A DNA stretch of 8,840 nt from Syntrophaceae bacterium UBA4778 (GTDB lineage Bacteria > Desulfobacterota > Syntrophia > Syntrophales > UBA4778). Positions 1 through 8,840 of the stretch are shown here, piece by piece. The notes under the pieces were generated by a model that worked only from the letters and a program-made list of their open reading frames with translations, made no database searches and had not been told where the DNA came from. Position 1 is the stretch's first letter; each line of letters opens with the position of its first letter. The DNA lies in NCBI GenBank assembly GCA_002403175.1, contig DHHG01000130.1, positions 1-8,840 on the forward strand, read 5' to 3'. Made by a program: the position numbers and the translations under genes.

Positions 1-375
1 GCGATGGTGGGAGATGGGATCAATGATGCCCCCGCGCTGACCGCAGCGGATATCGGAATCGCCATCGGGACCGGAACGGATGTCGCCATTGAAGCCGGCG
101 ACATCACCCTGATTCGGGACGATTTAAGAGCCGTTCCGGATGCGATCCGGCTTTCTGCCCGGACAATGAAAGCCATACGGCAGAACCTTTTCTGGGCTTT
201 TATTTATAATACAATCGGTATACCCATTGCAGCCGGGATTCTCTATCCATTCTGGGGAGTTCTCCTGAATCCTGTTTACGCTGCTGCCGCAATGGCCCTG
301 AGTTCCGTATCTGTTGTCACCAATTCATTGCGATTACGCATAAGCTGGAGAAAATTGAAGACCTCCTGGAGTTAG
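1..375 (+). CDS. copA: Copper-translocating P-type ATPase (CopA-like), C-terminal fragment
   Basis: This is the C-terminal end of a P1B-type heavy-metal ATPase, an inner-membrane pump that exports Cu+ using ATP. The reading frame is open from base 1, so the gene starts outside the window. The fragment opens with the hinge motif [10 protein letters not shown] (bases 4-33), which coordinates Mg2+ in the P domain of all P-type ATPases. The last two membrane helices follow. The first contains Y-N (about bases 205-210) and the second contains M-A-L-S-S (about bases 292-306). These match the Y/N and M-x-x-S-S signatures of the last two helices in Cu+ (P1B-1) pumps, which line the transport site together with a CPC motif upstream of the window. 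A short basic tail ends at TAG 373-375. The metal assignment rests on these membrane motifs. No terminator hairpin is evident directly after the gene. Confidence 0.9.
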
Positions 376-447
376 CTGCACTTTGGAAAAAGAGTGAGTG
401 ATAAAATTCGACTTCCAGGCCTCAATTATTTTCAATTCGCAATTAGT

Positions 448-476
448 TTGAAAGTGCCGATGAAATACATTAAAAT
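448..476 (+). promoter_or_regulatory. Putative sigma70 promoter for the 61-aa gene
   Basis: TTGAAA (448-453) and TAAAAT (471-476) are separated by exactly 17 bases, each matching the sigma70 consensus at five of six positions. Transcription would start near base 483, about 65 bases before the ATG at 548. Just upstream (about 421-446) the pentamer CAATT occurs three times in an AT-rich stretch, which could be an UP element or operator. This is a prediction by consensus matching only. Confidence 0.5.
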
Positions 477-547
477 TAGGTTAAAATTGCGTGAGAAGTG
501 GTTTCCCTGTTCATTAACCTTTTAGTTCCAAAGAAAGGAGACGCCTT

Positions 548-733
548 ATGAATCTGGAATTAACTAAAGATGAACTGGAATATCTGCTAATGTTGCTGAA
601 AAAAGAAGATGTGGGGACAAGAGTGGAAATTCATCACGCAGATCGGTCTTTTGAATACCGTGCATATCTGAAAAACCGTGATAAGATGATTTCCGATCTT
701 TTGACAAAAATAAAAGAACATTCTCTTGAGTAG
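548..733 (+). CDS. Small acidic helical protein, 61 aa, function unknown
   Basis: I do not recognise a characterised family. The gene has a strong AAAGGAG Shine-Dalgarno (about 533-539) eight bases before the ATG and its own promoter candidate, so it looks real. The protein begins with a helix-forming L-T-K-D-E-L-E-Y-L-L-M-L-L-K-K segment. A short R-V-E-I-H-H-A-D segment follows, and it ends with a charged helix rich in Lys, Asp and Leu. It has no Cys, no signal peptide and no membrane segment, so it should be cytosolic. The pattern of an opening L-T-x-x-E-L helix, a central R-V-E-I strand and a closing helix resembles small conserved hypothetical proteins found in many deltaproteobacteria; this resemblance is from memory and not verified. 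The gene is monocistronic, with a weak hairpin at 749-773 and a strong bidirectional terminator at 833-867 behind it. Confidence 0.75.
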   Translation: MNLELTKDELEYLLMLLKKEDVGTRVEIHHADRSFEYRAYLKNRDKMISDLLTKIKEHSLE

Positions 734-748
734 AAAAAGCTTTTATTT

Positions 749-773
749 TCGATTTCCCTCTTAAATCGATTTT
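749..773 (+). terminator. Weak terminator-like hairpin after the 61-aa gene
   Basis: TCGATTT (749-755) pairs with AAATCGA (763-769) around a seven-base loop and is followed by TTTT. The stem is AT-rich and short, so it is at best a weak intrinsic terminator. The stronger hairpin at 833-867 probably does most of the work. Confidence 0.35.
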
Positions 774-832
774 CATGTTTGTCATGTGGCAGCATTATAG
801 TCAACTGGAAAAAGCGGGGGAGAAAAAAATGA

Positions 833-867
833 AAAAAGACCGGGCCTATGACCCGGTCTTTTTATTT
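833..867. terminator. Bidirectional intrinsic terminator
   Basis: A perfect 12-bp stem is formed by AAAAAGACCGGG (833-844) and CCCGGTCTTTTT (852-863) with a seven-base loop. It is flanked by a T-rich run on the + side (to 867) and by A-rich sequence that becomes T-rich on the - strand. It sits between the convergent 61-aa gene (+) and HhH operon (-). The stop codon of the - strand gene (866-868) overlaps its edge. It should stop transcription from both sides. Confidence 0.9.
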
Positions 868-1066
868 AAATTTCAACACCTGCACGTTGCATCTCCTGAA
901 TGACACTCTTGGAAAATCCCGGGACGTTGTCCAGATCGCTCCAATCCTCAAATTCTCCATGTTCGTTTCTATAATCGATAAGCATTTCCGCCCTTCGTTG
1001 GCCCAGTCCCGGCACCTGTGCGAGTTCGTCCATGTCGGCTTCATTCAGATTGATTCTCCTTGCCAT
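866..1066 (-). CDS. Stand-alone helix-hairpin-helix (ComEA-type) protein, 66 aa
   Basis: This tiny protein is essentially one ComEA-type double helix-hairpin-helix domain, a fold that binds double-stranded DNA non-specifically through backbone contacts. It starts M-A-R-R-I-N-L-N-E-A, the usual R-x-N-L-N-x-A entry of this family. The first hairpin is V-P-G-L-G-Q-R-R-A (residues 18-26) and the second is V-P-G-F-S-K-S (48-54). Both carry the P-G-h-G/S turn typical of DNA-binding HhH motifs. Unlike ComEA it has no signal peptide, membrane anchor or SLBB domain, so it is expected in the cytoplasm. The start is set by an AGGAGG site (1074-1079 on the opposite strand) seven bases away. It is the second gene of a two-gene unit, 17 bases after its paralogue, and ends in the bidirectional terminator. 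The DNA-binding role is inferred from the fold only. Confidence 0.85.
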   Translation of the reverse strand: MARRINLNEADMDELAQVPGLGQRRAEMLIDYRNEHGEFEDWSDLDNVPGFSKSVIQEMQRAGVEI

Positions 1067-1083
1067 ATGGATACCTCCTGGAT

Positions 1084-1308
1084 TTAAATCGTTGCCCCAC
1101 TTTGCCTAAGATCTTCGATCAGGCCGCGGGAAAATCCGGCAATTTCTTTCAAGTCGTCCCAGCTCCTGATCCCGCCATAATTTTTTCTGAATTTAATTAT
1201 GTTTTCTGCACGCTCCCTTCCCAACATAGGCAGATTCTCAAGGTCTTCCAGATTGGCGCTATTTAGATTGACCCTTTTTTCCGTTCTTGTTTCGCCTTCA
1301 TATTCCAT
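1084..1308 (-). CDS. Stand-alone helix-hairpin-helix (ComEA-type) protein, 74 aa
   Basis: This is the first gene of a tandem pair and a paralogue of the 66-aa protein downstream. Residues 11-74 align with residues 3-66 of that protein without a gap, with 24 identities in 64 positions. A charged 10-residue N-terminus precedes the R-V-N-L-N-S-A entry. The first hairpin is L-P-M-L-G-R-E-R-A (26-34); its Met replaces the usual Gly of P-G-x-G, which may weaken DNA contact. The second is I-A-G-F-S-R-G (56-62), where Ala replaces Pro. The frame is open further upstream to 1476, but the ATG at 1306-1308 is preferred. It follows CAGGAGG with eight bases of spacing, and the upstream residues look non-coding. 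There is no signal peptide or membrane anchor, so it is probably a cytosolic nucleic-acid-binding protein of unknown role. Confidence 0.83.
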   Translation of the reverse strand: MEYEGETRTEKRVNLNSANLEDLENLPMLGRERAENIIKFRKNYGGIRSWDDLKEIAGFSRGLIEDLRQSGATI

Positions 1309-1316
1309 CTTCCCGG

Positions 1317-1323
1317 CCTCCTG
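1317..1323 (-). promoter_or_regulatory. Ribosome binding site deciding the start of the 74-aa HhH protein
   Basis: On the - strand this reads CAGGAGG, eight bases before the ATG at 1306-1308. It supports the short 74-aa form over the 130-aa open frame that continues to 1476. Confidence 0.8.
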
Positions 1324-1612
1324 TTTTTTTACTTTGGAGTCTATCAAAACAGTTTTGACTTGAAATCGGGTAACAACTGAAATCCAATTTAGCTTTGGAT
1401 AAAATACCTGGTAGAATTGGATGATAGGGCATTTCCGGATTCTGAATGAGACTCCAAAGAACAATTCCCTGCTCATGAAGCCGGATAAGAAATCAGAAAT
1501 TTAAAAATCAGGTTTTTCGATATGGACGGAGAGAGTTTTCTATATGAAAAATTACGTAGGAGAAGCGAAAAAGAGCGGATTCATTCTTCTTTTATTCCGA
1601 AGGAGTTAGTTT

Positions 1613-2632
1613 ATGAAAAGACGCGATATGCTCAAAGGTATGCTTATCCTGGCAGGTTTTTCCTTTTTTCCGATTCGTCATTTTCTTTTATCAGATGCAA
1701 TAGCAGCCAAGGGTGGAATAGGAGAAAATAAAATGATTTACAGAAAACTTGGACGTACAGGTGAAACGGTGTCGGCCATCGGAATGGGAGGTTTTCATAT
1801 CGGGATTCAGGATACGGAACAAGAGAGTGTTAAATTGATTCGTAAGGCGATTGATAGAGGGATCACCTTTATGGACAACAGTTGGGATTACAACGGTGGC
1901 GAAAGCGAGAGGAGGATGGGGAAGGCGCTTCAAAACGGATACAGGGAAAAAGTATTCCTGATGACCAAGGTAGACGGAAGGACGAAAAAATCTGCTGCCC
2001 GGCAGATCGATGAATCTTTGAAGAGATTGCGAACGGATCATTTGGATCTCCTTCAGTTCCACGAAATTATCCGTATGGAAGATCCGGAACGTATCTTCGC
2101 GGATAACGGCGCAATCCATGCAGCTCTGGAAGCGCGCGCAGCCGGAAAAACTCGCTTCATCGGTTTTACCGGACATAAGAGTCCTGAAATTCATCTGAAA
2201 ATGCTGGATGTCGCTGCCATGAACAAATTTCGTTTCGATACGGTTCAGATGCCGCTCAATGTAATGGATGCGCACTATAAGAGCTTTTCCCATTTGGTAC
2301 TCCCCAGATTGGTTAAGGAAGAGATCGGGGTATTGGGAATGAAATCGATGGGAGATGGAATCATCCTGAAGAGTAAAAAAGTCAAACCGATTGAATGTCT
2401 CCAGTATGCGCTACATTTGCCAACCAATGTTGTTATTACGGGGATCGATAATATGTCAATTTTGGATCAGGCTCTGGAGGCAGCCCGGACTTTTGAGTCT
2501 ATGTCCGATGAACAGGTTGCCTTATTGCTTTCCAGGACGAAAAGAGCAGCCCTCGAAGGGAAATACGAACTCTTTAAAACATCGGACACTTTCGACAGCA
2601 CGGCACGCAATCCGCAATGGCTGGGAACGTAA
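1613..2632 (+). CDS. Aldo/keto reductase with Tat-type signal peptide, 339 aa
   Basis: This NAD(P)H-dependent aldo/keto reductase family TIM barrel would reduce carbonyl groups; the substrate is unknown. All four catalytic residues of the family are visible: Asp88 in F-M-D-N, Tyr93 in W-D-Y-N-G, Lys119 in M-T-K-V and His150 in Q-F-H-E. The barrel begins at M41 (M-I-Y-R-K-L-G-R-T-G) and reaches the C-terminus. Ahead of it is a 40-residue leader with M-K-R-R-D-M-L-K, a good twin-arginine motif, then a hydrophobic stretch (about 10-26) interrupted by Arg22-His23, then D-A-I-A-A as a likely cleavage region. Export of the folded, cofactor-loaded enzyme to the periplasm is therefore likely. The start follows AAGGAG (1600-1605) by seven bases. 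A second Shine-Dalgarno and ATG exist precisely at M41, so a cytosolic form is possible. No Fe-S cysteine cluster is present at the C-terminus. It appears monocistronic. Confidence 0.9.
   Translation: MKRRDMLKGMLILAGFSFFPIRHFLLSDAIAAKGGIGENKMIYRKLGRTGETVSAIGMGGFHIGIQDTEQESVKLIRKAIDRGITFMDNSWDYNGGESERRMGKALQNGYREKVFLMTKVDGRTKKSAARQIDESLKRLRTDHLDLLQFHEIIRMEDPERIFADNGAIHAALEARAAGKTRFIGFTGHKSPEIHLKMLDVAAMNKFRFDTVQMPLNVMDAHYKSFSHLVLPRLVKEEIGVLGMKSMGDGIILKSKKVKPIECLQYALHLPTNVVITGIDNMSILDQALEAARTFESMSDEQVALLLSRTKRAALEGKYELFKTSDTFDSTARNPQWLGT
1720..1735 (+). promoter_or_regulatory. Possible internal translation start of the aldo/keto reductase
   Basis: AGGAG (1720-1724) lies eight bases before an in-frame ATG (1733-1735) that coincides with the first residue of the catalytic barrel (M41). 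It could give a leaderless cytosolic enzyme, or be a relic of the ancestral start before the signal sequence was added. This is inference from position and spacing only. Confidence 0.4.
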
Positions 2633-2816
2633 TAGAAATGCTGAAACCAAATCGTATGAAGTATTTTGGATACTGGAATCGCCTGAATAAAAGAGTAGGT
2701 TAAATTAAAGGATAGTTCCGGGAGAATTTAAAAATTGTGGGGTCGCTGTAACTTCAAAACCCGCCCCGAAAAACTGTGCCCTTAATAGGACATGAACGAG
2801 AAAGATATTGAATGTA

Positions 2817-2853
2817 AGCAGGATGAGAGATTCGCTTAGATTCTCATCCTGCT
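2817..2853. terminator. Perfect 12-bp hairpin between convergent genes, no U-tract
   Basis: AGCAGGATGAGA (2817-2828) pairs perfectly with TCTCATCCTGCT (2842-2853) around a 13-base loop. It lies between the convergent aldo/keto reductase and exported-protein genes, where a shared terminator is expected. Neither side has a T-run, so it may instead end transcription with Rho, protect RNA 3' ends, or be an unrelated inverted repeat. The rest of the gap (2633-2816) shows no convincing gene. Confidence 0.5.
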
Positions 2854-2883
2854 ATAAATATCTGAGGTGAAAACCAGGGCGAT

Positions 2884-3321
2884 TCAGTCTCTGTTTCCCC
2901 TGCCGTGACCTCGATTTCCCCTGTCGTGTTTATTGCCCGGATCCCTATCTATTCTCTGGATTCCATCCCGATCGCCATGTCTTTCAATCTGTGCTTTATG
3001 ATGGGGCGCATAAACATCATTGTACCATTGATCTTTTACGAAATAGACGGGGCGGCCGCAGGCGTTATATTTCGAACAGTTTTTTCGCCAATGTTTGGCG
3101 TGGCCGGGAGGTACCCGCAGATAAATGGGTTCTTCAACAACTGCCGCACGCTGTCGGATCACAACCGGCTTGGAATAAACCACTTCCGGCCTGGGTGCAT
3201 TGCCGATATCGATTCGGCCATAAAAACCGGGCTCACCAACACTGACCGATACACCGACATCGGCAGCTTGTGCCGAAACAGCAAAAGCGCATACCAAAAT
3301 TGCAAATAGTAAATGCTTCAT
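2884..3321 (-). CDS. Exported small basic protein, 145 aa, function unknown
   Basis: The N-terminus is a clear Sec signal peptide: M-K-H, a hydrophobic core to about residue 16, then A-Q-A with cleavage expected after residue 19. The mature part starts A-D-V-G-V-S-V-S-V-G-E-P-G-F-Y-G-R-I-D-I-G. A central block follows with Y-L-R-V-P-P-G-H-A-K-H-W (67-78), two cysteines (C82 and C88) that could form a disulfide in the periplasm, and P-V-Y-F-V-K-D-Q-W-Y (91-100). I recall a conserved family of exported hypothetical proteins, common in proteobacteria, with this G-F-Y-G-R-I-D-I-G and P-P-G-H-A-K-H-W pattern; none has a function I can name. The last 30 residues are low-complexity, made of Arg, Gly, Asp, His and Asn, and look like an extension to that core. 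The Shine-Dalgarno AAGGAGG lies four bases before the ATG. A promoter candidate with a perfect TTGACA lies upstream at 3360-3388. Confidence 0.8.
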   Translation of the reverse strand: MKHLLFAILVCAFAVSAQAADVGVSVSVGEPGFYGRIDIGNAPRPEVVYSKPVVIRQRAAVVEEPIYLRVPPGHAKHWRKNCSKYNACGRPVYFVKDQWYNDVYAPHHKAQIERHGDRDGIQRIDRDPGNKHDRGNRGHGRGNRD

Positions 3322-3358
3322 ATCTCCTCCTTGAAAATGAACGCCTCAGCGTTTCGTG

Positions 3359-3377
3359 GAAAGTACATTGAAAGTAC
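3359..3377. repeat. Tandem direct repeat GAAAGTAC, 11-bp period
   Basis: GAAAGTAC occurs at 3359-3366 and again at 3370-3377, one helical turn apart. The pair overlaps the spacer and -10 region of the predicted promoter of the exported-protein gene. That placement would suit a repressor or activator site. No regulator can be named. Confidence 0.4.
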
Positions 3378-3388
3378 TCCGTTGTCAA
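3360..3388 (-). promoter_or_regulatory. Putative promoter of the exported-protein gene
   Basis: On the - strand a perfect -35 box TTGACA (3383-3388) is followed after 17 bases by TACTTT (3360-3365), a poor -10 with only three of six matches. A perfect -35 with a weak -10 and the overlapping GAAAGTAC repeat suggests a regulated promoter. It lies about 40 bases before the start codon. Confidence 0.4.
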
Positions 3389-3583
3389 TAACAAGGAAAT
3401 CGAATATCCAGGTTGTGGCGGACGGAAAAGTGCCGCACATTTGAGTGGTTCCGTTTTTAGAGAAAGGGAAATAATGTTCGACAAATCGCTTCAAGTGAAT
3501 TAAATTTCTTTGCAATGCTTTTCTGTGAGAAACAAATCTTGATACTATTTTGATGTCGGCGACTGCGACTCTTTCTGGAGAAG

Positions 3584-5242
3584 ATGATGAGCGTTCATGA
3601 ACTGGCCGGGAAACCGGCGCCCCGATCGATTCTGACCAATATTCCCCGATTGATTTCTTCCTATTATTCCCACCGTCCCGATCCGAGCGATCCGGCTCAG
3701 CGAATTGTTTTCGGCACATCCGGGCACAGGGGTTCCTCTATCAAAAACAGTTTTAATGAGCATCATATTATCGCCATCTGCAAGTCTATCTGCGAGTACC
3801 GCCGTAGTGCGGATATAACGGGCCCGCTCTACATAGGGATGGACAGCCACGCGCTTTCCGAAGCAGCCTTTGCAACTGCAATCGAGGTCTTCGTCGCATA
3901 CGGTGTTACCGTCATCATTCAGAAAGACCGTCGGTATACTCCAACACCGGTCATATCCCATGCAATCCTAACTCATAACCGGAACCGGGAAGAAGGATTG
4001 GCGGATGGAATCGTAATTACGCCGTCCCATAACCCTCCTGAGGACGGCGGATTCAAATATAATCCGCCGGAAGGAGGTCCTGCGGATACGCGCGTTACCC
4101 GGATCATTGAGGAGCGTGCCAATTCAATCATGGCCGATGAATTAAATTCGATACGGCGGACGCCGTACGAGAGGGCAATGATATCGGATTACGTAATCGA
4201 GTCCGATTATATTGAACCGTATGTCGCAGGTCTGGCGGATATAATCGATATGGAATCTATTGCCGGGGCAGGACTCAAGATCGGGGTAGATCCTCTCGGA
4301 GGTGCTGCACTCGATTTCTGGGATCCCATCCGGGATCTCTACAATCTTAATCTGGAGGTGGTCAATCGCGTTATCGATCCGACATTCTCGTTCATGACGG
4401 TCGATAAAGACGGCAAGATCCGCATGGATTGCTCGTCTCCTTATGCTATGGAAAGCTTGATTCGGCTGAAAGACCGCTTTGACATTTCCTTTGGTAACGA
4501 TACCGATGCCGACCGGCATGGCATTGTTACCCGCAGTGCGGGCCTGATGAATCCGAACCATTTTCTCTCGGCGGCAATCTGGTATTTATTCCAGAATCGT
4601 CCTGGCTGGCGTCCCGATGCTGCCGTCGGGAAAACGCTTGTATCGACATCGATGATCGACCGCGTAGCTGCCGGGATCGGCCGTCCTCTCCTGGAAGTTC
4701 CTGTAGGATTCAAATGGTTTGTCAATGGACTTTTGGATGGCTCCTGCGGATTTGGCGGTGAGGAAAGCGCCGGAGCGGCATTCCTTCGCCGCGATGGTTC
4801 GGTTTGGACGACGGACAAGGACGGCATCATCATGGATCTGATCGCCTGTGAAATAACGGCCAGAACCGGACAAGATCCAGCGGCCCTGTATCGGGAACTG
4901 GAAGCGCGCTTCGGATCATCTTCCTATATCCGCATCGACACGTTTGCCTCACCCGCGCAAAAGAAGGCTTTTCAGCGGCTTACGCCCGGCATGATTTCAG
5001 CTAAAGAAATGGCCGGAGATCCGATAACAGCAACGCTGACCAAAGCGCCCGGCAATCAGGCGGTCATAGGCGGCCTTAAGGTAGTAACTGCGAACGGCTG
5101 GTTTGCGGCCCGACCTTCAGGGACGGAGGATATCTATAAGATCTATGCAGAGAGCTTTCTGGGCGAAGCGCACCTGAACCGGATGCTGGAGGAGGCCGTT
5201 ACGATTGTAAATGGTGCATTTGTAGCCGCTGGAGTCGATTGA
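3584..5242 (+). CDS. pgm: Phosphoglucomutase (alpha-D-glucose phosphate-specific)
   Basis: This cytosolic enzyme interconverts glucose-1-phosphate and glucose-6-phosphate, linking glycolysis to glycogen and cell-envelope sugar synthesis. At 552 aa it is close to the roughly 546 aa of E. coli Pgm and covers all four alpha-D-phosphohexomutase domains. Visible motifs are T-S-G-H-R-G (45-50), the catalytic phosphoserine loop T-P-S-H-N-P-P (146-152, Ser148), the Mg2+ loop D-T-D-A-D-R-H-G (306-313), the sugar-binding G-G-E-E-S-A-G-A (391-398) and the phosphate-binding R-P-S-G-T-E-D (510-516). G-G-E-E-S-A-G-A and D-x-D-R-H-G fit the Pgm subgroup better than the bifunctional PMM/PGM enzymes. Two ATGs are adjacent. 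GGAG (3577-3580) is three bases from the first and six from the second, so the true start may be 3587. hslO begins 31 bases after the stop and the two are probably co-transcribed. Confidence 0.95.
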
Positions 5243-5273
5243 ATCCGCCAAAAGTAAGATTTTGAGGTTATGA

Positions 5274-6164
5274 ATGAATGATTATCTAATTCGAACAATA
5301 AGCGAAAAAGCCAATGTGATCGGGCTTGCTTGCATTACATCGGGACTGGTTGAGGAGGCCGCCAGACTTCATGAAACTTCGCCGACGGTTTCGGCCGCAC
5401 TTGGTCGCGCACTCACGGGGGGATTACTGCTGGGATGCATGATCAAAGAGGGGCAGCGTGTCGGCCTGAAATTCGAAGGCAATGGTCCATTGAAGAAGAT
5501 TGTTGTGGAGGCGGACAGCAAAGGATGCGTTCGGGGCCTTGTCGAAAGTCCTTCTGCTGATGCGCCTCCCAGAAAAGGCAAACTCGATGTTTCCGGCGTC
5601 GTAGGACGGGAAGGCTTTCTTACCGTGCTGAAAGATATCGGTCTGAAGGAACCTTATCAGGGGATCGTGAAACTCAGGACAGGTGAAATAGCGGAGGATA
5701 TCGCGTTTTATCTGTCGGAATCCGAACAGATCCCGTCGGCTGTCGGTCTGGGCGTTTTTGTGGAACCGGACGGGAAGGTCTCGGCGGCAGGAGGTTTCAT
5801 GATACAGTCTCTTCCTCCCTCGGAGGGTCCAGTTCTGGATCAACTGGAGAAAAATATCGGGAAGATGCCTTCAGTTACGGAAATGATCAGGAGGGGAAAA
5901 TTACCCGAGGATATGCTTGCTGGAATTTTCGCAGGTATTGATTACCGCGTGATCGAAAAGAGGGGTCTATCTTATTGCTGTACCTGCAATCGGGACAGGA
6001 TTGAAAGAATTCTTATTTCCCTCGGATGCGACGAGTTGAACAAGCTGAAATCAGAACGGGAAGAGATACAGGTCACCTGTGAATTCTGCCGTACAAGATA
6101 TTCCTTTAATCGCGGAGAAATTCAGAATCTCCTGGATGAAATGGGGTGCTCGCAAGAGATGTAG
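5274..6164 (+). CDS. hslO: Hsp33, redox-regulated molecular chaperone
   Basis: Hsp33 is a cytosolic holdase that becomes active when oxidants such as peroxide with heat, or hypochlorite, oxidise its zinc-bound cysteines, unfold the linker and release aggregation-protecting surfaces. The protein has the usual length (296 aa), with the N-terminal core up to about residue 185. This includes I-T-S-G-L-V-E-E-A-A and the A-L-G-R-A-L-T-G-G-L-L-L helix. The C-terminal redox switch has all four zinc ligands: C236-x-C238 and C269-x-x-C272; an extra C235 precedes the pair. The ATG at 5274 is chosen because it follows GAGG (5264-5267) by six bases; the overlapping ATGs at 5270 and 5278 run into stops within four codons. 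It lies 31 bases after pgm, and its stop codon overlaps the Shine-Dalgarno of the selenoprotein gene, implying translational coupling. Confidence 0.96.
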   Translation: MNDYLIRTISEKANVIGLACITSGLVEEAARLHETSPTVSAALGRALTGGLLLGCMIKEGQRVGLKFEGNGPLKKIVVEADSKGCVRGLVESPSADAPPRKGKLDVSGVVGREGFLTVLKDIGLKEPYQGIVKLRTGEIAEDIAFYLSESEQIPSAVGLGVFVEPDGKVSAAGGFMIQSLPPSEGPVLDQLEKNIGKMPSVTEMIRRGKLPEDMLAGIFAGIDYRVIEKRGLSYCCTCNRDRIERILISLGCDELNKLKSEREEIQVTCEFCRTRYSFNRGEIQNLLDEMGCSQEM

Positions 6165-6168
6165 GAGG
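6162..6168 (+). promoter_or_regulatory. Ribosome binding site of the selenoprotein, overlapping the hslO stop
   Basis: TAGGAGG includes the TAG stop of hslO and lies seven bases before the GTG at 6176. It fixes a start upstream of the in-frame TGA, so the ribosome is directed to translate through that codon. Confidence 0.85.
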
Positions 6169-6175
6169 CATTTGC

Positions 6176-6652
6176 GTGGGCGATATCGATATTGTGGTTG
6201 GTAAACCAGCGCCGGATTTTGAATGTCAGGATAGCGAAGGGAAAAAGGTAAGGCTCTCCTACTATCAGGGTAAAAGCCATGTTGTCCTCGTCTTTAATCG
6301 CGGTTTTTCCTGACCGTACTGCCGCAAGCACATGGCGCAGTTGCGCCAGGATTACCCTGAATTTATCAGTCGCGGCGCCGAAGTGATTGCAATCGGCCCT
6401 GAGGACCAGCCAACTTTTAATGATTGGTGGCGCCGGCACGAAATGCCGTTTATCGGTCTGCCCGATCCTGATCACTTCATCTCCAATATCTACAGGCAGC
6501 AGGTAAAATTGTTGAAGCTAGGACGAATGCCCGCTCAATTTATCGTGGACAAAAAAGGTTTGATCCGTTATGTGCATTACGGCAATTCGATGGCCGATAT
6601 TCCGAATAGTCAGGAGATCCTGAACAAACTGGATGAACTCAACCGGGAGTGA
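6176..6652 (+). CDS. Peroxiredoxin-like selenoprotein (AhpC/TSA, UxxC), UGA recoded as Sec
   Basis: This thioredoxin-fold protein of the AhpC/TSA-redoxin group probably reduces peroxides or disulfides in the cytosol. Read from GTG 6176 it is 158 aa, with one in-frame TGA at codon 46 (6311-6313). Before the TGA are G-K-P-A-P-D-F (9-15), the classic peroxiredoxin entry, and V-V-L-V-F-N-R-G-F-S. After it come P-Y-C-R-K-H-M. Homologues have C-P-Y-C here, so the TGA replaces the first, nucleophilic Cys and leaves the partner C49: a U-P-Y-C motif. The remaining fold is complete, with M-P-A-Q-F-I-V-D giving the cis-Pro at 119 and G-L-I-R-Y-V-H-Y-G after it. A SECIS-like hairpin follows at 6333-6348. 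Codon use and frame are intact on both sides, which argues against a decayed gene. Calling from the internal ATG at 6332 would give a 106-aa protein without an active site. It is probably co-expressed with hslO. Confidence 0.88.
6311..6313 (+). other. Selenocysteine codon (UGA) at the redox-active position
   Basis: TGA is in frame with the GTG at 6176 (codon 46) and sits between F-S and P-Y-C. Decoding needs SelC tRNA, SelB and the hairpin downstream; those genes are not in this window. Confidence 0.85.
6333..6348 (+). promoter_or_regulatory. Bacterial SECIS-like hairpin
   Basis: TGGCGC (6333-6338) pairs perfectly with GCGCCA (6343-6348) around the tetraloop AGTT, whose second base is G followed by U. 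Bacterial SECIS elements are small hairpins inside the coding region, with a G among the first two loop bases and a loop roughly 16-37 nt after the UGA. Here the distance is 25 nt. An A-T pair could close the loop further. SelB binding is inferred. Confidence 0.75.
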
Positions 6653-6945
6653 ATCCGGCAGTGAGCGCATGCCCCGCTGCTTGCGTCGGGGTAAGCTAGC
6701 GGATCATGTTTAAACATTTTCCTTGAAGATCGGAGATTCGCCGGAGACTTGCTCCGGTGAGTCTTCAATCCCTCCGCTTTACAGCCAATCCGCGGTCCGG
6801 GGAGATCCTATTTAAGTATTGCCTCCATTGCCGTACTCGGGTTTGTGTCACTGCTGCAATGATGGAAAGGATATTTTCAAATTTTTGTAGGAACGGAATG
6901 GACCATTCATTCTGGCAGAAACTTTATGAAACTATGGGAGGAAAA
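6653..6945. other. Intergenic region with several inverted repeats
   Basis: No gene is supported between the selenoprotein and the tube-like gene. The region holds CCCCG/CGGGG (6672-6676 with 6687-6691), a perfect palindrome ATGTTTAAACAT (6706-6717), and a nested structure. The nested structure has an outer TTGAAGA/TCTTCAA (6723-6729 with 6762-6768) around an inner CCGGAG/CTCCGG (6741-6746 with 6752-6757). None has a T-run, so classic intrinsic termination is unlikely. The frame of the downstream gene stays open back to 6757, but that part has no Shine-Dalgarno and an unusual Cys- and Arg-rich composition. Confidence 0.5.
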
Positions 6946-7497
6946 ATGATGGAGAGAAAAAAAATTATATCTTTAGGAATGATTTTTGGCGCTTTCATTA
7001 TGTGTTTTATCTTAACAAACCAGTTCTTACTAAAGGATGCGCTGTCTGCTACAGCATCTGTGCAATCAGTATATAAGTACCAGTTGAATATTAACGGCAA
7101 ACCGGTTGCCCTTTTTGCTGAAATGTACAATGCAGGTACTGAACACGAAATAATCGAACAGAAGGTGGCAGATAGCCAGGGAAAGACATACATAAAGAAA
7201 ATTCCAGGAAGGCTTAAATATACGAACATCGTACTTAAGGGGGGAATTTCAAAAAATTTAGAAATAGCTTCTTGGAGACAAAAGGTATTGGATGGAAAAA
7301 TAAATGAGGCCCGCTCGGCAGTTACTATCGTTATGCGTGATCAAATGGGTAACGAGTTGGCTAGCTGGAACCTTGCTAATTGCTGGCCTTCAAAACTTAT
7401 TTATAATCCGGTAGAGCCCCTGAATGAGAGTGCCGGAGCACCACAGGGGGTGGAAATGATTGAACTGGTTTTCGAAAACATATTACGTACGAAGTGA
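6946..7497 (+). CDS. Tail-tube-like protein (gp19/TIGR02241-type) with N-terminal export or anchor segment
   Basis: From about residue 42 to the end the protein is a full-length phage tail-tube-like domain of the kind annotated as T4 gp19-like or TIGR02241. It shows Y-K-Y-Q-L-N-I-N-G, then a V-A-L-F-A-E strand, then K-I-P-G-R-L-K-Y-T-N-I-V-L-K-G-G-I, then W-x(4)-V-L-D-G-K, then A-S-W-N-L-A-N-C-W-P-S-K, and finally M-I-E-L-V-F-E-N-I. In phages, type VI systems and contractile injection systems this fold stacks into the inner tube. Here it is preceded by a basic start (M-E-R-K-K) and a hydrophobic stretch (residues 7-29), then A-L-S-A-T-A. That is a signal peptide or a membrane anchor, which tube proteins normally lack. 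GGGAGG (6936-6941) is four bases from ATG 6946 and seven from ATG 6949, so either may be used. No sheath, baseplate or ATPase gene is nearby. The gene looks more AT-rich than pgm and hslO, which may point to transfer. Its function is unknown. Confidence 0.8.
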   Translation: MMERKKIISLGMIFGAFIMCFILTNQFLLKDALSATASVQSVYKYQLNINGKPVALFAEMYNAGTEHEIIEQKVADSQGKTYIKKIPGRLKYTNIVLKGGISKNLEIASWRQKVLDGKINEARSAVTIVMRDQMGNELASWNLANCWPSKLIYNPVEPLNESAGAPQGVEMIELVFENILRTK

Positions 7498-7524
7498 TTT
7501 GCCAATCCAACTGGAAAATCTTAT

Positions 7525-7569
7525 AAAAGGAGGCCATCAGCTAACAGAATGCTATGGCCTCTTTTTTTT
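7525..7569 (+). terminator. Strong intrinsic terminator after the tube-like gene
   Basis: GAGGCCAT (7530-7537) pairs with ATGGCCTC (7554-7561). The stem can extend inward through AGC/GCT with one bulge and outward through a G-T wobble and A-T pairs. It is followed by a run of eight T (7562-7569). It isolates the tube-like gene from cheY. The remaining gap to 7778 shows no convincing gene or promoter. Confidence 0.92.
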
Positions 7570-7778
7570 CACTTTCCTGATTGATTTCCAAAGGAATTTA
7601 TCGGGTCTGGAATTTTTCCAATTTCATTGTAATTCTTGTTTCTCCATCCTGCAGTTTTATGCTAGGTTGCAATCGTTACTGGTTGTTTCTCCTTTGAAAT
7701 AAATCAGGATCGGAGGAGATTTTGTATATGGCATCGGGGGAGCTGGTTTACTCGACATGGATGAAAGGGGGCACAGCC

Positions 7779-8162
7779 ATGAATGAAGAAACTACTATAA
7801 TGATAGTCGATGATAATGAACCCATCAGAATTCTTGTCAGGCATATCCTGGAAAGAGAGGGCTACCGGCATTTTGTTGAGGTGGGAGACGGTCTTTTAGC
7901 ATACAAGGTTTTGAAAACCCATGAGATCGACCTTGTTATCTCGGACTGGAACATGTGTGGAATGACAGGAATCGAGCTTCTGAGCAAGATTCGGGCTGAT
8001 CAGGATATCGCAGAAACGCCTTTCATCATGTTATCCGTGGAGAGTCTTGATATCAGCATAGATCAAGCTATCCAAAACGGAGCCAATGATTTTATTTCTA
8101 AGCCATTCACAATCGGTGAACTGACGTCCAGTGTTGCCCGCGTCATGAGGCAATCCAGTTAA
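7779..8162 (+). CDS. CheY-like single-domain response regulator
   Basis: This is a stand-alone phosphoacceptor (receiver) domain, 127 aa, with no output domain. It is likely a CheY-type protein that carries phosphate from a histidine kinase to a flagellar motor or another target. It has the acidic pair D11-D12 in I-V-D-D-N-E, the phosphorylated Asp56 in I-S-D-W-N-M, Ser86 in the switch position of I-M-L-S, and K108 in S-K-P-F. All the residues needed for phosphotransfer are therefore present. The chosen ATG follows AAAGGGGG (7764-7771) by seven bases and gives the usual CheY length. The frame also continues to an ATG at 7728 and a TTG at 7722, which have a good GGAGGAG site (7712-7718), so an N-terminal extension of up to 19 residues cannot be excluded. 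It forms an operon with the CheX-like gene 26 bases downstream. Confidence 0.88.
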   Translation: MNEETTIMIVDDNEPIRILVRHILEREGYRHFVEVGDGLLAYKVLKTHEIDLVISDWNMCGMTGIELLSKIRADQDIAETPFIMLSVESLDISIDQAIQNGANDFISKPFTIGELTSSVARVMRQSS

Positions 8163-8188
8163 CCTTCTTTCAGGAAGATGTGATTTTT

Positions 8189-8653
8189 ATGAATGTTGAT
8201 GTTATCAATGCCTTTTTGAATAGTTCAATTCATGTATTGAAAGTTATGGCTTCTTTAGATGCAACTGCGGGAAAACCCTTTTTAAAAAAAGACAGGTTGG
8301 CAACGGGAGATGTTTCCGGAATCATAACATTCTCAGGTCCTTTGGTGGGATCGTTTGCTCTGAGTTTTTCGTCAGACTGCATTTTAAAAGTTGCCTCCAC
8401 CATGCTGCGTGAAGAGATCAGTAGCATTAATCATTTGGCGCGGGACACAGCAGGCGAACTCACGAACATGATTTCAGGTGACGCCAGAAAGAGGCTGGAA
8501 AGCAAAGGACTCATAATAAGAGCCGGCATTCCTTCAATCGTGTCGGGCAAAGATCATGAAATCGGCCATGTCTTGGCGGGACCGAGCATTGCTATCCCAT
8601 TTACGACAGCTTTTGGTCCGTTTGTAGCGGATGTCAATATCCAGCAGAAATAG
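8189..8653 (+). CDS. CheX-like chemotaxis protein phosphatase
   Basis: CheX and CheC family enzymes dephosphorylate CheY~P. The protein is 154 aa, close to the typical CheX length, and begins M-N-V-D-V-I-N-A-F-L like other family members. The family active-site signature D/S-x3-E-x2-N is present once as D86-T-A-G-E90-L-T-N93, as in CheX, whereas CheC has two. The M-I-S-G-D-A-R helix follows, and later a G-P-S-I-A-I-P-F strand. The ATG at 8189 is preferred over GTG 8180 because the family start aligns there, although the spacing from AGGAAG (8172-8177) is long for it and short for the GTG. It directly follows the CheY-like gene, so the pair can be read as a regulator with its own phosphatase. 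No methyl-accepting protein or CheA lies in the window, so a non-motility pathway is also possible. Confidence 0.87.
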   Translation: MNVDVINAFLNSSIHVLKVMASLDATAGKPFLKKDRLATGDVSGIITFSGPLVGSFALSFSSDCILKVASTMLREEISSINHLARDTAGELTNMISGDARKRLESKGLIIRAGIPSIVSGKDHEIGHVLAGPSIAIPFTTAFGPFVADVNIQQK

Positions 8654-8743
8654 CACCGTACGCAAATACGCTCTGTATCCCTTTAATTGTCTATGGGGCG
8701 AATTTGTAGGGGGGGTGCTTGCGAACGGAAAGACTGAATCTGA

Positions 8744-8840
<97 letters not shown>

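Follow-up and report, generated by a model that had tools for sequence, protein, structure and literature searches.

A peroxiredoxin-like protein with a UxxC site, predicted to be a selenoprotein and widely misannotated among its relatives

The gene and its reading frame

We analyzed a stretch of 8,840 nucleotides from Syntrophaceae bacterium UBA4778 (assembly GCA_002403175.1, contig DHHG01000130.1, positions 1 to 8,840 of the forward strand; hereafter the window), and in particular a peroxiredoxin (Prx)-like gene in which an in-frame TGA opens a UPYC motif, U being selenocysteine (Sec). The features of the locus are collected in Table 1. The 158-amino acid product has the AhpC/TSA fold with the TGA at residue 46, and the Pfam match to AhpC-TSA (PF00578) crosses the TGA, extending over residues 8-133 with 96.2 bits (cut-off 26) and an E value of 1.7e-27. 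Together with the AGGAGG and the GTG at 6176, this match bears out the original prediction, made from the letters of the window, that the ribosome-binding site, the start and the fold on either side of the TGA are intact. It had also been expected that gene callers would report only 106 amino acids from the ATG at 6332, which is what the frame finder returned, and 50 of the 120 listed homologues are fragments as well.

The results showed that the selenoprotein reading proposed in the original prediction is well supported at the sequence level, because the TGA is conserved (80/80), homologues carry Cys at the same column, a selenocysteine insertion sequence (SECIS) hairpin follows with both synonymous codon constraint and covariation, and genes of the Sec machinery (sel) are present in the genomes of relatives.

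Table 1. Features of the Prx-like gene and its surroundings (positions of the window)
Feature	Position	Strand	Remarks
Prx-like selenoprotein gene (predicted)	6176..6652	+	158 codons, GTG start 6176, TGA stop 6650-6652
In-frame TGA, predicted selenocysteine 46 (U of U-P-Y-C)	6311..6313	+	Sequence context GFS-U-PYC
Cys49, second residue of UxxC, probable resolving Cys	6320..6322	+	C in 81/81 (window + 80 loci)
SECIS apical hairpin UGGCGC-AGUU-GCGCCA	6333..6348	+	Loop 6339-6342; 25 nucleotides 3' of UGA
G116-R117-M118-P119 codons (RxP loop)	6521..6532	+	Pro aligns with the RLP proline of thioredoxin-family 3hdc
Shine-Dalgarno AGGAGG	6163..6168	+	7 nucleotides 5' of GTG; overlaps hslO stop (TAG 6162-6164)
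106-amino acid C-terminal fragment, ordinary frame-finder output	6332..6652	+	False start ATG 6332 overlaps the hairpin
hslO (Hsp33)	5274..6164	+	5' neighbour, stop 11 nucleotides short of GTG 6176

Conservation of the TGA and records of homologues

A scan of genome contigs confirmed 169 relatives in named genomes, and the best 80 of these were kept for locus counts; counts out of 81 refer to the window plus these 80. Part of the locus search used the peptide MAQLRQDY, so that the amino acids there are fixed, and the query (P0001) has one extra residue derived from the terminal TGA. The column of residue 46 carries TGA in 80/80 of the kept relatives at 49% to 67% identity, and a codon shared over such distances exceeds chance. 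A true stop, whether due to a pseudogene, a sequencing error or a separate 106-amino acid C-terminal protein, would agree with the ATG that follows at 6332 and with the 50 such fragments among the 120 listed homologues, but we consider it very improbable, since all 80 kept relatives share the codon with both sides still forming one conserved domain, and the N-terminal portion of the fold is missing from the fragments.

According to the record titles, 67 of the 80 loci belong to Chloroflexota, mostly Anaerolineae, and the other 13 to Deltaproteobacteria (2), GN15 (2, one genome), KSB1, Marinimicrobia, Syntrophomonadaceae (3), Desulfuromonas, Desulfobulbaceae, Desulfobacterales and Clostridium rhizosphaerae. 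The gene from the record titled Marinimicrobia (L048) groups with those of Anaerolineaceae, near L014 and L016, and is likely a binning error or a recent transfer.

Two phylum samples were also surveyed. For the sample titled Dehalococcoidia (G003-phylum, 301 genomes), 61 genomes had a match at E <= 1e-15, and at E <= 1e-28 the best match held TGA in 31 of 32 genomes, part of them checked base by base; the sole stop-free case (G274) has TGC at the column, and G303 has TAA besides TGA in its match. Distant paralogues in this phylum (L090-L093, L095, L096, L098, L099) have U-[MLI]-Q-C with TGA at the same column. For the sample titled Deltaproteobacteria (G001-phylum, 297 genomes), 18 genomes had a match at E <= 1e-20, and the 23 matched places held one TGA in 18 and TGC in 4 (all in G432), with the column uncovered in 1. 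The class of G478 (42 genomes) yielded a Prx-like relative at E <= 1e-15 in only 3, the best at 51% identity. Cys codons occur at the Sec column in L102, L107, L108 and L128-L131. A quick tree of 139 rows needed 16 changes between Sec and Cys, only 4 of which were forced by well-supported branches, and we therefore claim no direction for the change.

Among the 120 public protein homologues listed of 4209, the 50 fragments are 100 to 111 amino acids long, and 49 of them begin with MAQLR just 3' of the TGA. The remaining 70 have Trp (52), Cys (16), Leu (1) or Arg (1) at the Sec column, and 102 of the 120 are thus either a fragment or carry Trp at the active site (P0003 and P0006-P0009 are examples of the latter). 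The comparison with Cys homologues that had been suggested as a check accordingly gave TGA in 80/80 loci and, among the 70 records that are not fragments, 16 with Cys. As judged by comparing the protein records alone, the Trp entries are probably TGA translated with table 4, a systematic database error. The same 52 of 120 entries are what a table-4 gene caller would give if TGA had been reassigned to Trp or Gly in these organisms with no involvement of Sec, a reading that we hold to be extremely improbable, because TGA terminates the Prx-like gene, pgm and two further frames of the window, the Trp column at +39 has 71 Trp codons that are all TGG with TGA in 0/81 rows, 16 listed homologues have Cys, and the hairpin and SelB are present.

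The SECIS hairpin

When the U of UGA is numbered 1, positions 23-28 pair with 33-38, with the AGUU loop between them. For bacterial SECIS elements, the review PMC13188914 gives a stem of 4 to 16 base pairs, a loop of 3 to 9 nucleotides with G in the first two places, a spacing of 16 to 37 nucleotides and a minimum free energy of -7.5 or lower; the window hairpin agrees with all four, having 6 base pairs, AGUU, 25 nucleotides and -10.8 kcal/mol, respectively.

The codons GCG, CAG, TTG and CGY 3' of the UGA are nearly fixed (CAG and TTG in 81/81 each), while their usage elsewhere in the genes is far different. The Cys49 codon is TGC in 79/81 and the codons just 5' are likewise skewed; codon columns before -1 and past +12 vary about as usage predicts. 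Codon choice in the MAQLRQDY region should be free, the search patterns being degenerate. GTTG was also found in 10/10 main-type loci from a separate genome search (L110-L118, L124), and it is absent from the hairpin place in all 7 Cys loci seen, some of which are distant paralogues.

Compensated stems were observed in L062 (GACGC-AGUU-GCGUC) and L073 (GAUGC-AGUU-GCAUC), and one pair is broken in each of L072 and L076. By itself, a hand-picked alignment of the window with 34 of the 80 loci (A1) showed thin covariation, with 2 pairs and 3 cells changed on both sides. A wider alignment (A3) joined the window and 7 of the 80 loci, a choice meant to cover deviants, with 26 of 34 further TGA loci chosen for [A/G]GTTG in register (8 left out); this last choice itself imposes the loop conservation in A3 but not the stem covariation. 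With the distant Sec paralogues thus added, both-sided changes were found in 5 of the 6 pairs and in 20 cells, in comparison to 5.0 cells for shuffled controls and at most 12 for slid ones. In the U-[MLI]-Q-C paralogues the AGUU loop is identical and sits on a stem that differs and covaries, and in L108, a Cys member of that family, the loop is altered to AGCU.

Selenocysteine machinery in the genomes of relatives

We picked 50 of the 80 loci for a survey of the machinery in their genomes. SelB exceeded its cut-off in 43 of the 50, and 5 of the other 7 had both SelA and tRNA-Sec over the cut-off, so that at least one of the three was present in 48 of 50; tRNA-Sec was over the cut-off in 6 of 8 genomes searched for it. 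In 14 known control genomes the cut-offs were exceeded by SelB in 2, SelA in 1 and tRNA-Sec in 5, and the fewer control matches make SelB and SelA the more specific tests. For the deltaproteobacterial sample, SelB was searched in 17 of the 18 matching genomes and in G478, and was found in 15 of the 17; G598 is without SelB but has SelA and tRNA-Sec. For the Dehalococcoidia sample, SelB was found in 31 of 31 close TGA carriers (P 4e-4 without kinship correction) and in 41 of 43 genomes that we listed as having any TGA-holding match, several distant ones being unchecked for position; G323, whose column codon is TGC, was excluded from the 43.

A number of results weigh against the selenoprotein reading. 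The machinery evidence comes from the genomes of relatives, and tRNA-Sec also exceeded its cut-off in the 5 control genomes. Neither SelB over the cut-off nor SelA nor tRNA-Sec was found in three TGA-bearing genomes, namely G396 of the deltaproteobacterial sample and, among the 50, G011 (0.9 Mb) and G038 (2.0 Mb); SelB was not found in G090 and G299, and G663 had no SelA and only a partial tRNA-Sec match. SelB is present in 237 of the 301 genomes of the Dehalococcoidia sample, which is a high background, and in 14 of the 18 genomes whose matches are all free of stops. As for the hairpin, Rfam gave no SECIS-family match at gathering score in the window, and at E <= 10 over 6250-6450 only two chance matches. 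The window hairpin is borderline against synonymous recodings (p 0.054), and p <= 0.05 was reached by 18 of the 81 main sequences, 6 of the 34 other Sec sequences and 1 of the 7 Cys sequences; the fold of 6305-6370 has a z score of -2.11. Single-sequence folding was thus rejected as proof of SECIS, and the case for the hairpin rests on the constraint seen in the codons and on the larger alignment. The link between TGA and SelB is present, over a high background.

Active site and probable catalysis

When the protein is aligned to peroxiredoxins, the PxxxTxxC residue opposite Sec46 is the Thr (or Ser), and the peroxidatic Cys is matched by Cys49. The original prediction had placed the TGA at the nucleophilic Cys, which stands in the thioredoxin sense only and not for Prx, in view of these two alignments. 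The classical PxxxTxxC motif is not found, the window protein having RGFSUPYC with Arg in place of Pro and Sec in place of Thr; Arg42 at the Pro position is invariant (81/81), and so is each of G116, R117 and P119 of the RxP loop (81/81).

The second Cys is lost in six Sec relatives of the deltaproteobacterial sample (L119-L123 and L125; e.g., L119:1618 and L120:1624), which have UPYA or UPFA, and 5 of these 6 proteins have no Cys at all. Other variants are UKQS (L127), UPYT (L124) and Cys forms with S or T (L128-L131). The UPxA hairpins have another sequence (CAUCUG-GGC-CAGAUG in L119) at about the same place, and L127 has a weak hairpin only. As the UPxA relatives keep Sec without the second Cys, the comparison favours Sec46 as the catalytic residue. 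The thioredoxin-type UxxC together with the RxP loop suggests that the most likely role is that of a thioredoxin-like selenol oxidoreductase on a Prx scaffold, for which we would favour, as substrates in anaerobes, either thiol disulfides or organic peroxides.

A classical peroxidase of the Bcp/PrxQ type, in which Cys49 is peroxidatic and Sec46 assists, for example by resolving, would also be a selenoprotein. The nearest solved folds belong to peroxiredoxins, Bcp and AhpE among them, the peroxidatic Cys is matched by Cys49 (as in the FTQVC of 2ywn), and the invariant R117 aligns with an Arg of 3drn; we nevertheless consider this unlikely, given that the Pro of the Prx motif is replaced by the invariant Arg42 and the Thr by Sec, and that the six UPxA relatives retain Sec with Ala at the place of Cys49.

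As a whole, the reading that we regard as highly probable is that of a selenoprotein with hairpin-directed UGA decoding, a Prx fold with a thioredoxin-type UxxC site, and Sec46 as the nucleophile. SelB with Sec-tRNA would bind the hairpin (6333-6348) and the UGA (6311-6313) would be read as Sec in this organism, giving a Prx-fold protein with the thioredoxin-type site. The selenolate of Sec46 would then attack a disulfide or peroxide, Cys49 would resolve the adduct as an Se-S bond, and a thioredoxin-type reductant would reduce this bond, so that the protein may act as a selenol oxidoreductase of the thioredoxin/TlpA type or as a thiol peroxidase, not through a PxxxTxxC site. More tentatively, and at less than even chances in our judgment, the clade may be a distinct uncatalogued selenoprotein subfamily with Sec at the Thr place of Prx as the sole catalytic residue, the UPxA/UKQS branch being a '1-Sec' enzyme with a Prx scaffold, for whose resolution an outside thiol would be needed.

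Comparison with known families

In 2005, proteins with PF00578 and UxxC were already listed as one of the selenoprotein families known before (PMC1088965), and a 2026 review names them 'Prx-like thiol:disulfide oxidoreductase' in its tabulated families (PMC13188914). Prx-like selenoproteins (PF00578, UxxC/UxxU) are entered for Deltaproteobacteria, and as 'distant' for Syntrophomonas, in Table 1 of PMC13188914, Table 2 of PMC2398784 and Table 3 of PMC1794560, in line with the original prediction, which had such UxxC proteins as known in deltaproteobacteria. The window protein shares PF00578, UxxC and a predicted Sec with this class ('Prx-like 1' of the GOS survey; representative WP_010940744.1) and is a member by the definition of PF00578 with UxxC. 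In comparison to the published class, Chloroflexota titles account for 67 of the 80 loci, whereas the count given in the 2006 survey (PMC1794560) is 3 Chloroflexota selenoproteins.

The best NCBIfam match of the window protein is NF040769, SelL-related redox protein (79.6 bits, residues 10-100), whose cut-off of 120 was not reached by the window protein, 3 homologues or 10 loci scanned. SelL itself has UxxU, unlike the UxxC of the window protein. In contrast to Bcp/PrxQ peroxiredoxins (3drn, 3hjp) and Sec-containing Prx with TxxU, the window protein lacks PxxxTxxC and has Sec where Thr is. Among ResA/TlpA-type proteins (3hdc, 4nmu), the CPYC site and the RxP loop of 3hdc align with it, but by eye it has no N-terminal hydrophobic stretch, and its 57.1 bits against the ResA model NF002854 are below the cut-off of 170. 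Among the matches listed, the window protein and the scanned relatives reached no model cut-off of NCBIfam release 20.0, and we found no open-licence paper joining selenoprotein, Anaerolineae and peroxiredoxin. What is known is the kind, in print by 2005; what is new is this widely misannotated member.

Genomic context

The pairing with hslO that had been singled out for attention did not recur. HslO was found near the Prx-like gene in 0/80 loci at E <= 1e-10 (68 loci have more than 1200 nucleotides upstream), and at the strict threshold of E <= 1e-50 HslO occurs in 48 genomes of the deltaproteobacterial sample, none of them one of the 18 that carry the Prx-like gene; over all 297 genomes the top HslO match has 60% identity (G478). 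The adjacency looks like a local arrangement private to the window. No conserved operon partner was identified; the neighbour clusters met most often in the 80 loci were an alpha/beta-hydrolase-like gene upstream (11), a second hydrolase-like gene (10), a small membrane protein (8) and a DegV-like gene (7), the names being our reading of the sequences rather than a family search.

Elsewhere in the window, 6757-7497 encodes a protein in which a T4 gp19-like tail-tube domain (PF06841, E 2.6e-22) comes after what is by eye an N-terminal hydrophobic stretch, and it is followed 3' by a response regulator and then a CheX-like gene. The phosphoglucomutase of the window matched one of 120 listed records at 100% and the other 119 at 71% to 76% identity; those that bear a name are assigned to Deltaproteobacteria, Syntrophales, Syntrophaceae, Syntrophorhabdus or Thermodesulfobacteriota. 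Positions 1-375 read as a P-type ATPase-like C-terminal end, a fragment without Pfam match.

Implications

Since the enzyme is stored mostly as post-TGA fragments or with Trp at the active site, it can escape surveys of selenium usage and of thiol redox systems, and the frozen hairpin offers a clean motif for finding the remaining members of the family. Among the relatives, Cys forms, Sec forms and Sec forms that lack the second Cys make up a natural series for testing what Sec contributes. The predicted Sec enzyme is common among lineages of uncultured anaerobes, which by title are for the most part Anaerolineae and other Chloroflexota, together with Syntrophomonadaceae and deltaproteobacterial groups.
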